Source: Candidatus Eiseniibacteriota bacterium
GTDB lineage: Bacteria > Orphanbacterota > Orphanbacteria > Orphanbacterales > Orphanbacteraceae
Reading direction: 5' to 3'
Assembly (NCBI GenBank): GCA_024276995.1
Contig: JAJRWB010000044.1
Coordinates: forward strand, 79,000 to 142,999
Length of the DNA: 64,000 bases
Shown: positions 40,512-57,746 of the stretch, in pieces
Numbering within the stretch: position 1 is the first letter of the stretch
Layout: every line of letters starts with the position of its first letter
The notes under the pieces: generated by a model
What the model was told of the DNA's origin: nothing
The model's input: only the letters and a program-made list of their open reading frames with translations
Database searches by the model: none
Made by a program: the position numbers and the translations under genes

Positions 40512-43202
<2,691 letters not shown>

Positions 43203-52923: not shown

Positions 52924-53795
52924 GAGTGCGCCTCCTCGATCAGAAGGGAGACGTCCGCCGCCGGCGCCGAATGGGTGAGCGCGCCGATCGAGATGCCGTC
53001 CATGCCGAGCGAAGCGCTCTTCGCCGCGCGCTCGAGATCGAATCCGCCGCTCACCTCGATGTACGGCCCGCCCCCGCGGGAGCGGACGCGCCGCACCGCC
53101 TCGACGATCGATTCATCATTGAAATTATCGAGCATCACCCTTTCCACGTCGAGATCGAGCGTTTCCTCGAGCTCGTCGAGGTTTTCCACTTCCACTTCCA
53201 CCGCGACGCCGGGAAAGAGGGCGCGCACCTTGCGCACCGCCGCCTCGATCGAGCCGGCGGCGGCGATGTGGTTCTCCTTGAGAAGCGCCATCGATGCGAG
53301 ATCGACGCGGTGGTTCACCCCTCCCCCTGCGGCGACGGCGCGCTTCTCGAGATGGCGGAGGCCGGGGAGGGTTTTTCGCGTATCAAGAATCTCCACGCCT
53401 GTGCCGCGCACCGCCTCGACGTAGCGCGCCGTCCACGTCGCCACGCCCGACAGGTGCATCATGAAGTTGAGCGCTCCGCGCTCGGCACTCAAGATCGACC
53501 GCGTCCGCCCCTCGAGCCGCGCGATCACCGCACCCGGGCGAAGCCGGTCCCCCACCCCCACCGCCCATTCGACAACGACCTCTTCGTCGACGGTGCGAAA
53601 AAGCGCACCGGCGGCGTCGATCCCCGCGAGAATCCCGGCGGAGCGAAAGAGAATCCTTCCCCGGCAGCGCGCATCGGGGGGCACCGACGCGAGGGTGGTG
53701 ACATCCCGGTCGACACGGTCCTCGTCGAGAGCGCGCTCCACCGCCGCCCGAAGCGCCTCCTCGTACCGCTCATCATCATGCCGTTCATCGTTCAT
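52920..53795 (-). CDS. nadC: nicotinate-nucleotide pyrophosphorylase (carboxylating)
   Basis: A 291-residue NadC, converting quinolinate and PRPP to nicotinate mononucleotide. It has the PRPP/quinolinate residues in LDTRKTLPGLRHLEKRAV, GGGVNHR and KENHI, and later EVEVENLDE and SGG. The ATG at 53795 overlaps the TMTC-like gene by 11 bases. It completes NAD synthesis with nadA at 6568-7686. Confidence 0.97.
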   Translation of the reverse strand: MNDERHDDERYEEALRAAVERALDEDRVDRDVTTLASVPPDARCRGRILFRSAGILAGIDAAGALFRTVDEEVVVEWAVGVGDRLRPGAVIARLEGRTRSILSAERGALNFMMHLSGVATWTARYVEAVRGTGVEILDTRKTLPGLRHLEKRAVAAGGGVNHRVDLASMALLKENHIAAAGSIEAAVRKVRALFPGVAVEVEVENLDELEETLDLDVERVMLDNFNDESIVEAVRRVRSRGGGPYIEVSGGFDLERAAKSASLGMDGISIGALTHSAPAADVSLLIEEAHS

Positions 53796-55767
53796 CGCCG
53801 GTGGCCCCCTGCCTTTCATCGGTGCGCCGCGACCCATCTCGCTCCCCCAGTGTATCCCCTCTCGCGTCGCGAGAAAAGGAACGGCGCTCCCGCACGAGGT
53901 TCGCCGTCGCCTGGCGAAGAGACGGATCGATCGCCAAGGCGCGGTGGAAAGCGTCGATCGCGCCGTCATGATCGCCCCGGCTCGACCGAACGAGGCCCGC
54001 TGCGTTCCACAGATGCGCCGACGCGCCGGCATCGAGAAGGGGACGAAGGATCGCCTCCGCTTCGTCCGTCCTCCCCTCTTCCACCAGGCAGCGGACCAAG
54101 CCGATGAGGGCGCCCTCCCGGCCGGCATCGAGAGCGAGCGCACGCCGGTAGGTCTCCTCCGCTTCTCCGAACGCGCCCTCGCCGGCGAGAAGATCGCCGA
54201 GAAGGGCGAACCTCCCCGGCGTCTCCCCGGCGAGGCGGATCCCTTCCCGGATGAGAGCGATCCCTTCCCGGCGGCGGGAGAGCTTTCCTAGAAGGGCCGC
54301 TTCGAGATCGTAGGCCGGCCCGTAATCGACCGCCGCCGAGCGCGCCTTCCGATACCAAGTCAGGGCATCGTCGCTCTTCCCCGATCGTTCATACGAAAGC
54401 CCCAGTCCGACCATCGCCTCCACGAGAGCGCCGTCGAGCCGAAGGGCCCGGCGGTAATGCTCCACCGCCTCGTCGAATCGCCCCGCCGCGCGTTCGGCGC
54501 GACCGAGATTCACCCATGGGCGCGCCGCGCCGGGCGCCTTCTTCGCGGCGTCCTCCCAAAGGGCGATCGCGTCGGACCAGACCGTCGCGCGCCGGTGCGT
54601 GACGAATGCGAGGGGGACGACCATCACCGCCAGAAGAACGCCCCTCCGGGGAAGGCGGGCGAGGAGCGACGACGCGGCGATGAAAAGCCCCACCGAGGGG
54701 AGATACATCCGGTGCTCGACCATGACGTCCCGTATCGGAATGAACGACGATTCCACCGCCGAAGTGACGAGAAACCACGCCCATCCCGCCGTGACGAGCG
54801 GGAACCTCCTCCGTCCCTTCCACGCCGCCCATGTCAGCAGCGCGAGAAGCGCGCCGCCGGCGAGGACCGCCGACTCGGCGACTCCCGAGAGCGCCGCGAC
54901 GTCGTGATCGATGGTCAATCCTTTCGGAAAGAGGAAAAGGCCGAGATACCGGGGGAGCACGGTCAACTGCGTGGCGAAGTAGGCCCCCCTGCCGATGTCG
55001 GCCGTCTCCCGGAACGCGCCGAGCGTTTCGGCGGTGATATTCCGGCCCGTCCCCTCGCCGCCGAACAGGAGCGACGCCGGGATGAGCGGAAGGAGAAGAA
55101 GGAAAGGCGCCCCGGCGCGCCAATTCCTCTTCCCGGGCGGGAAGAAAAAGAACTCGCACAGCACGAGAATCACCGGCAGCGTGAAGGCGATCTCCTTGCA
55201 GCGCATCGAAAGGAAAGCGAGTGCGAAGGCGCCGATGCCGAGCGGGATGCTCCGGCGCTCCCTGGCGGCGAGATACGTCTCGAGCGCGCCGAGGTAGAAG
55301 AGCGTCGCCAGCGATGTGTAGCGCTGCGCCGCGTAGGCGACCGCCTGCGAAAGGAGAGGATGGACGAGGAAAAGGAGCGACGCGGCGAGGGGGAGGAACG
55401 ACCGGCCGCTTCCGCTCGGCCGCGCGCGCCGCGCGCACCTTCGGGCGAGTAGAAAGAGGAGGAACGCGCATAGGCCGTGCAGGGCGATGTTGACGGCGTG
55501 ATACGACGCCGGGGCGATTCCCGCGGCGGCGCGGTTGAGGGCGAAAGTAAAATCGGTGAGCGTCCTCCTGCCGGTGAGGGCGCGCACGGCGGTGCCGGCG
55601 GTGTCGTCGAGAGCGCCCTTCGCCGCGATCGCCGGGAAGTCGTCGTATGTCCACGTCCCCCTGAGGGAAGGAGCGTACAGGAGGAAGGCCGCCGCCACGA
55701 GGAGGAAGAGCATCGCCGCGGCGCCGGGGTACGTTCTCTCCGCCCGGCCGGCGGGCACGGCCGTCAT
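53785..55767 (-). CDS. TMTC-like multi-spanning membrane protein with C-terminal TPR
   Basis: 660 residues. About ten membrane helices cover the first 370 residues, with the periplasmic-loop motif WTYDDFPAI near residue 40, typical of TMTC/DUF1736 GT-C proteins. The border motif VWSDAIALWEDAAKKAPGAA leads into six or so TPR units (such as PWVNLGRAERAAGRFDEAVE). TMTC proteins are O-mannosyltransferases in animals; bacterial members are probably lipid-linked sugar transferases. The ATG overlaps the stop of the uvrB tail as ATGA, so its translation may depend on ribosomes crossing that tail. Confidence 0.85.
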   Translation of the reverse strand: MTAVPAGRAERTYPGAAAMLFLLVAAAFLLYAPSLRGTWTYDDFPAIAAKGALDDTAGTAVRALTGRRTLTDFTFALNRAAAGIAPASYHAVNIALHGLCAFLLFLLARRCARRARPSGSGRSFLPLAASLLFLVHPLLSQAVAYAAQRYTSLATLFYLGALETYLAARERRSIPLGIGAFALAFLSMRCKEIAFTLPVILVLCEFFFFPPGKRNWRAGAPFLLLLPLIPASLLFGGEGTGRNITAETLGAFRETADIGRGAYFATQLTVLPRYLGLFLFPKGLTIDHDVAALSGVAESAVLAGGALLALLTWAAWKGRRRFPLVTAGWAWFLVTSAVESSFIPIRDVMVEHRMYLPSVGLFIAASSLLARLPRRGVLLAVMVVPLAFVTHRRATVWSDAIALWEDAAKKAPGAARPWVNLGRAERAAGRFDEAVEHYRRALRLDGALVEAMVGLGLSYERSGKSDDALTWYRKARSAAVDYGPAYDLEAALLGKLSRRREGIALIREGIRLAGETPGRFALLGDLLAGEGAFGEAEETYRRALALDAGREGALIGLVRCLVEEGRTDEAEAILRPLLDAGASAHLWNAAGLVRSSRGDHDGAIDAFHRALAIDPSLRQATANLVRERRSFSRDARGDTLGERDGSRRTDERQGATGDER

Positions 55768-56063
55768 GAGCCGGTCGACCGGATTTCGAAGATCCGGTCC
55801 CTCAAAGAAGCCGCCTTCTCGAACTCGAGGTGCGCCGCCGCCTCGAGCATCTCCTTCTCGAGCAGCGCGATCAGTTCGTCTCCGGAAAGATCGGGGTCGA
55901 CTTTCACGCGGACCGGCTTTTCCCTCGTCCTCTTTCGCTTCGAATCGACCACCCCGGTGGAAAGGATCACTTCGTCGGTGCTCTTGCGGATCGAAACGGG
56001 GGTGATGCCGTGCTCCTTGTTGTACGCCACCTGCTTCTCCCGGCGCCGGTTCGTCTCGTCCAC
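55764..56063 (-). pseudogene. uvrB: C-terminal UVR part of uvrB, cut off by an amber codon
   Basis: 99 residues continuing UvrB in the same frame after TAG 56076-56078: DETNRRREKQVAYNKEHGITP, a variable linker, and the UVR motif LIALLEKEMLEAAAHLEFEKA that binds UvrC. Between the stop and the GTG at 56061-56063 lie four codons (IRAA) that also match UvrB. It could be made by readthrough, by reinitiation at the GTG (no good ribosome site), or not at all. Together with 56076-57746 the full reading gives about 660 residues, normal UvrB length. Confidence 0.8.
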
Positions 56064-56075
56064 CGCCGCCCGGAT

Positions 56076-57746
56076 CTAGCGGGTCACCGTCGATGCGTAA
56101 AGGACGACCTTTCCGCGCACGTTTCGCGCCGCCCGGCCCGCCGTCTGGATGAGCGACGTCTCCGATCGCAAGAAGCCCTCCCGGTCGGCGTCGAGAATCG
56201 CCACGAGACCGACCTCGGGCATGTCGAGCCCTTCACGAAGCAGATTGATGCCCACCAGGCAATCGAACTCCCCCATCCGAAGGGCCCGGATGATCTCGAC
56301 CCTCTCGAGAGCGCCGATATCGGAATGAAGATACCGTACGCGGATGTTCGCCTTCAGCAGATAGTCGGTGAGGTCTTCGGCCATCCTCTTCGTCAGCGTG
56401 GTGACGAGAACCCGCTGCTCCTCCTTCGCTTGGAGACGGATCTCCTCCATCAGGTCGTCGACCTGCTGTTCGACCGGGCGGATCTCGATTGCCGGGTCGA
56501 TCAGCCCGGTCGGGCGGATCACCTGCTCCACCAGGACCCCTTCCGACTTCTCCATCTCGTACTCGCCGGGCGTGGCGGAGACGTAGATCACCCTCGGCAC
56601 CGCCGCTTCGAATTCGTCGAACTTCATCGGCCGGTTGTCGAGCGCCGAGGGGAGGCGGAAACCGTACTCCACCAATTTCTCCTTGCGTGAACGGTCGCCG
56701 TTGTACATCGCCCTGAGCTGCGGAATCGTCACGTGCGATTCGTCGAGAATCACGAGAAAATCTTCGGGGAAGTAGTCGATCAGCGTGAGGGGATGCTCCC
56801 CCGGCGCGCGGCCGGTGAGATGGCGCGAGTAGTTCTCGATGCCCGAACAGCTGCCCACCTCGCGGAGCATCTCGATGTCGAACCGCGTCCGCATGTCTAA
56901 CCGCTGCGCCTCGACGAGCCGGTTTTCCCTCTCGAGTTCGCTCCGGCGCGCTTCGAGTTCCTCCTCGATGGCGCCCACGGCGCGCTCGAGTTTCTCCGCC
57001 GAGGTGACGTAGTGGCGTGCCGGATAGATCGGCAGGTAGGGATACTCCCCGAGCACCTCTCCCGTCAGGGGATGTACCTCGCAAAGCCTCTCGATCTCGT
57101 CGCCGAAGAGGCTGATCCTCACGGCGGTCTCCTCGTAGGCGGGCCAGATCTCCACCGTGTCGCCCCGGACACGGAACGTTCCCCTGGCGAGGAGGGCGTC
57201 GTTCCTCCGGTACTGGATATCGACGAACCGCCGGAGCATCTTCTCCCGCTCGACCTCTTCGCCCACCTTCAAGTAGACGTTGAGCGCCTCGAAATCTTCC
57301 GGCGAGCCGAGTCCGTAGATGCATGATACCGAGGAGACGATGATCACGTCATTTCGCCGTAGCAAGCTCGCTGTGGCGCGCAGGCGGAGACGGTCGATGT
57401 CGTCGTTGATCGACGCGTCCTTCTCGATGTATGTGTCGGTTCCCGGCACATACGCTTCCGGTTGAAAGTAATCGTAGTAGCTCACGAAGTACTCGACGGC
57501 GTTGTTCGGAAAGAAGGAGCGAAACTCCCCGTAGAGCTGCGCCGCCAAGGTCTTGTTGTGGGAGATGACGAGCGCCGGGGCGCCGTAGCGCTCGATCACG
57601 TTGGCGATGGTGAACGTCTTTCCCGAGCCGGTGACGCCCAGGAGTGTCTGGTGGGTGTCGCCGCGCGCAAGACCCTCGGAGAGTTCCTCGATCGCCTGGG
57701 GCTGGTCGCCCGTCGGCTGGTAGTCGGAGTGGAGCTCGAACCCCAT
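56076..57746 (-). CDS. uvrB: excinuclease ABC subunit B, interrupted by in-frame TAG
   Basis: 556 residues of the DNA-damage-verifying helicase of nucleotide excision repair. Walker [11 protein letters not shown], the beta-hairpin region ([20 protein letters not shown]), the DESH box in ILDESHVT, and motif [11 protein letters not shown] are all present. It ends VLYASTVTR-stop, where other UvrB proteins continue with Ser-Met. A single change TCG to TAG explains it. All helicase motifs are kept; the UvrC-binding tail is separated. The ATG follows the RodZ-like gene stop by one base. Confidence 0.9.

Follow-up and report, generated by a model that had tools for sequence, protein, structure and literature searches.

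An in-frame TAG interrupts uvrB

In the window, i.e., the whole 64,000-nucleotide stretch of DNA that was analysed, uvrB occupies positions 57746 to 55764 on the minus strand, interruption included. The part before the interruption (56079 to 57746, minus strand) begins with ATG at 57746 and comprises 556 codons, which by translation and profile matches encode the helicase domains, the UvrA-interaction domain, and Helicase_C. It is followed by an in-frame TAG (56076 to 56078, minus strand) at residue 557 and then by 103 codons and a TGA (55764 to 56075, minus strand) that encode the remainder of the PF12344 region along with the UVR motif. Translation of the reverse strand confirmed the in-frame TAG described in an earlier note on this DNA and, as also claimed there, the frame is the same before and after it, with no frameshift. 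Both the head (556 amino acids) and the tail (103 amino acids) match UvrB; scored against TIGR00631, for which the curated cut-off is 750 bits, uvrB read through reaches 1050 bits compared to 958 bits for the head by itself. Compared with bacterial UvrB (TIGR00631, PF12344, and PF02151), the gene has all UvrB domains once read through and a score like those of intact relatives, but it differs by the one in-frame TAG at residue 557, which falls within the conserved PF12344 region and leaves no uninterrupted frame through domain 3 and the UVR motif.

Directly downstream, and considered here as context only, lies an ORF for a TMTC-like membrane protein with repeats (53785 to 55767, minus strand). 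The ATGA overlap of the two genes that the earlier note reported is real, with the uvrB TGA at 55766 to 55764 and the ATG of the TMTC-like gene at 55767 to 55765. uvrB is a single-copy gene in this genome: a second intact uvrB was considered and rejected, the remaining matches being weak, partial, and located within longer intact frames, and a search of plasmid records returned nothing.

The TAG stands at a conserved serine codon

Among 100 UvrB homologs, the column at the TAG contains Ser in 95 cases and Ala in the other 5, and the codon is TCN in 93 and TCG in 24. For comparison at the DNA level within the family, we used one relative, L020, which is the nearest readable one and the UvrB of which is 78% identical to the protein here. 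The codons CGC TAG ATC of this genome correspond to CGT TCG ATT in L020. Based on the Ser in the homologs and the TCG in L020, a single C>A change (G>T on the other strand) suffices to generate the TAG, as the earlier note had proposed. That note also stated that other UvrB proteins have Ser-Met at this point; the serine holds for 95 of the 100 homologs, whereas the departure from Met is not specific to this gene, as the residue after the stop is Ile here as well as in L020 and the difference is therefore inherited. The UvrB matches in 59 other genomes had no internal stops, which argues that the stop in uvrB is not a chance occurrence.

Identity to UvrB of L020 is 81% before the TAG and 64% after it. 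Because the average over the 100 homologs drops in the same manner from head to tail (64% and 44%), the tail of uvrB is not unusually decayed. Among 193 invariant UvrB columns, two deviate in this gene, and one of these (L374M) fits a C>A change; these are too few for a test based on missense changes.

Similar in-frame stops are scattered over the genome

We read 2.45 of the 3.76 Mb of the genome for stops flanked on both sides by coding-like sequence in the same frame. An automatic screen of 5,191 stops for spanning homologs was swamped by antisense frames, and we kept to sites whose coding frame was recognised. In the 2.45 Mb, the conserved protein is interrupted by a stop in at least 18 conserved genes, including those for GroEL, GAPDH, TrpD, phosphomannomutase, McsB, an RND pump, kinases, and sulfatases. 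When 20 candidates were tested against Pfam, the domain match spanned the stop in approximately 16. Matches crossing the stop included those of enoyl-CoA hydratase, TrpD, the RND pump, a GH130 enzyme, a CCG-domain protein, an ABC ATPase, HlyD, an amine oxidase, a subtilase, a thioredoxin-like protein, a McsB-like kinase, a glycosyltransferase, a PP2C phosphatase, and two sulfatases. PhoU and phosphomannomutase each have their stop between two domains of a single protein. Separately, we observed a TAG in an apparent Lon-type protease (contig C36, approximately 43027 to 43029; LPAANEP-TAG-LSEFPDEI), where two homologs have Asp.

The excess of stops belongs to this genome. The only GroEL gene contains an in-frame TAA at C8:12384-12386 and the GAPDH-I gene an in-frame TAG at C41:5012-5014, and both genes are intact in six of six relatives. 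Similarly, 2 of 10 RND transporter matches have a TAG here (one of the two located outside the 2.45 Mb read) compared to 0 of 57 in the six family relatives. The RND transporter stops are found at C66:3799-3801 and within C74:27968-29575. The stops are spread over approximately 20 contigs in genes regardless of their importance. By eye, approximately 40 stop contexts shared no sequence motif of the sort that methylation-linked base-calling errors are expected to leave.

For an external measure, we used proteins from nine 50-kb blocks of E. coli K-12, to which 75,751 codons of this genome aligned. In our own reading, these codons contained six mid-gene stops and no credible frameshifts; two automatic frameshift candidates were discarded, as they appear to stem from spurious antisense ORFs inside E. 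coli ribosomal genes. The resulting rate, approximately 8 stops per 100,000 codons, extrapolates to approximately 90 in the genome, with a Poisson range on six counts of approximately 30 to 190. Given that 13.5% of codons are one G:C>T:A step from a stop, the same extrapolation gives approximately 6 changed positions per 10,000 susceptible G:C positions.

The callable stops fit one type of base change

At 10 sites, the homologs give a residue from which the stop can be explained by one base change, and at all 10 the lost residue is Glu or Ser. Ser was lost in UvrB, GAPDH, phosphomannomutase, a kinase on contig C4 (in a mixed column with Ser in three of nine), and a FAD enzyme on contig C49 (based on one paralog), and Glu in GroEL, TrpD, a kinase on contig C30, an NtrC-type regulator on contig C31, and a sulfatase on contig C59 (also based on one paralog). 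The tally leaves out approximately eight mid-gene stops, in the genes for enoyl-CoA hydratase, the RND pump, the ABC ATPase, McsB, HlyD, and others, at which the ancestral residue is not callable. Random nonsense changes are expected to fall on Glu or Ser in 36% of cases with the codon usage of this genome and in 30% with a twofold transition bias. Glu codons can become TAG or TAA only by G>T and Ser codons can become TAG only by C>A, and all 10 changes are therefore G:C>T:A. Thus, one type of base change accounts for the stops in many unrelated genes at 10 of 10 callable sites.

Sequence error is the best explanation of the uvrB stop

These data make it very probable that the uvrB stop is one of a genome-wide set of G:C>T:A base errors in the DNA or the consensus rather than a property of the living cell. 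Accounted for in this way, the TAG would be a single-base C>A change (G>T on the opposite strand) of a TCG serine codon and one among several dozen similar in-frame stops scattered over the draft genome. The error would have entered through the DNA or the consensus, e.g., by oxidised guanine being read as T in a thinly covered or amplified template, and the organism itself would encode an ordinary full-length UvrB. Both the origin of the change outside the cell and its chemistry are inferred.

An artefact is favoured because the stops occur regardless of gene importance, including in the only chaperonin gene, and consist of one type of base change without indels. With the same kind of one-letter stop in many unrelated housekeeping genes, including the only GroEL gene, a base-calling or DNA damage error is the most likely cause; a living cell would not be expected to have its single-copy GroEL truly disrupted. 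The lack of indels would argue against uncorrected long-read errors and would suit guanine oxidation or an amplification that started from few template molecules. Oxidative damage is known to give G>T and C>A artefacts in sequencing data (PMC12390751). The stops here share with such artefacts the single base-change type, the scattered distribution, and the lack of indels, but they differ in being seen in an assembled consensus. Some points count against a sequence error: the contigs are long, so that coverage is perhaps not low; this genome yielded no fpg (mutM), an absence that would suit a mutator; and the ancestral residue is clear at only 10 sites, at some of them from a single paralog.

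The earlier note, which had listed both an assembly error and a recent nonsense mutation among its options, is partly supported: that the stop is one of many lay beyond its view. Given that numerous unrelated genes contain in-frame TAG, TAA, and TGA codons comparable to that in uvrB, the weight now rests on a genome-wide process of G:C>T:A errors.

Real mutations and altered decoding are less likely

The main rival, which we consider unlikely, is that the stops arose by real mutation in a living lineage of G:C>T:A mutators that is losing genes, e.g., due to defective repair of oxidised guanine. Mutators defective in mutM or mutY (the GO system) have an excess of G:C>T:A changes (PMC3676378), and the spectrum here equals theirs. 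Moreover, fpg/mutM, which encodes formamidopyrimidine-DNA glycosylase, had no match in this genome. However, mutY is present without stops, and the genes hit include ones expected to be essential, in contrast to those mutators. The lineage would also have to live with its only GroEL, as well as GAPDH-I, broken. Finally, three of the six relatives (G002, G003, and G006) also have no fpg match, yet they have no such stops in the UvrB, GroEL, GAPDH, and RND genes; sub-cut-off matches in the other three (G001, G004, and G005) indicate that fpg is patchily present in the family. In G003, mutY is split over two overlapping frames (C88:6376-7238), possibly by a frameshift or an assembly error.

It is improbable, to a greater degree, that the approximately 90 in-frame stops, including that in the only GroEL gene, are real in living cells, the bacterium either tolerating them by undetected readthrough or undergoing a mutational meltdown of the G:C>T:A type. 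Many bacteria can dispense with uvrB, and one base change is enough to interrupt it. If, however, the sequenced strain had acquired a real nonsense mutation in uvrB independently of the other stops, this would have coincided by chance with the same base change occurring throughout the genome, and we regard it as very improbable.

Translational readthrough or suppression yielding full-length UvrB would agree with the preserved frame and tail and with a tail identity that is not unusually low. The decoding machinery points the other way. RF1 (prfA) is intact (497 bits, no stops), and none of the 43 tRNA genes above the Rfam cut-off, all of which were read in an assembly that is 96% complete, has a CUA anticodon; the four serine tRNAs are all ordinary. 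In addition, no single suppressor accounts for stops of two kinds, TAG and TAA, that stand at Glu as well as Ser positions. We therefore give readthrough hardly any weight. On the same grounds, genome-wide recoding and an amber suppressor were rejected, in line with the doubt about recoding in the earlier note and contrary to the suppressor tRNA that it had offered as an option. The genome also contains a tRNA-Sec (TCA) at C75:142962-143059 and an intact selB at C69:71449-73311, and the organism probably makes selenoproteins by reading UGA as selenocysteine, a capacity that is irrelevant to UAG. An in-frame TGA in a thioredoxin-like protein (L095:16808-16810, contig C32) stands at the first Cys position of a CxxC-like motif (FYTDW-TGA-SGC) and may be a genuine selenocysteine codon or a TGC>TGA change of the same error set.

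Least likely, to the point of being negligible, is reinitiation beyond the TAG to yield a split UvrB, for although the tail keeps the UVR motif and has an in-frame GTG five codons past the TAG, the cut lies inside the PF12344 region, inspection by eye revealed no Shine-Dalgarno-like stretch before the GTG, and no UvrB examined in the 59 other genomes is interrupted. A split UvrB and programmed readthrough, both raised in the earlier note, need uvrB-specific explanations for which the data do not call.

Implications for the genome and the organism

The draft genome, for which completeness is rated at 96% and contamination at 0.2%, appears to contain approximately 90 false or damage-type stops. 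Consequently, claims of gene loss, pseudogenes, recoding, or split genes based on this genome are not trustworthy without reads. If the stops were real, they would represent a striking case of tolerated nonsense or of ongoing mutational decay. Most likely, the organism has an ordinary full-length uvrB, and the stop is not a biological feature.
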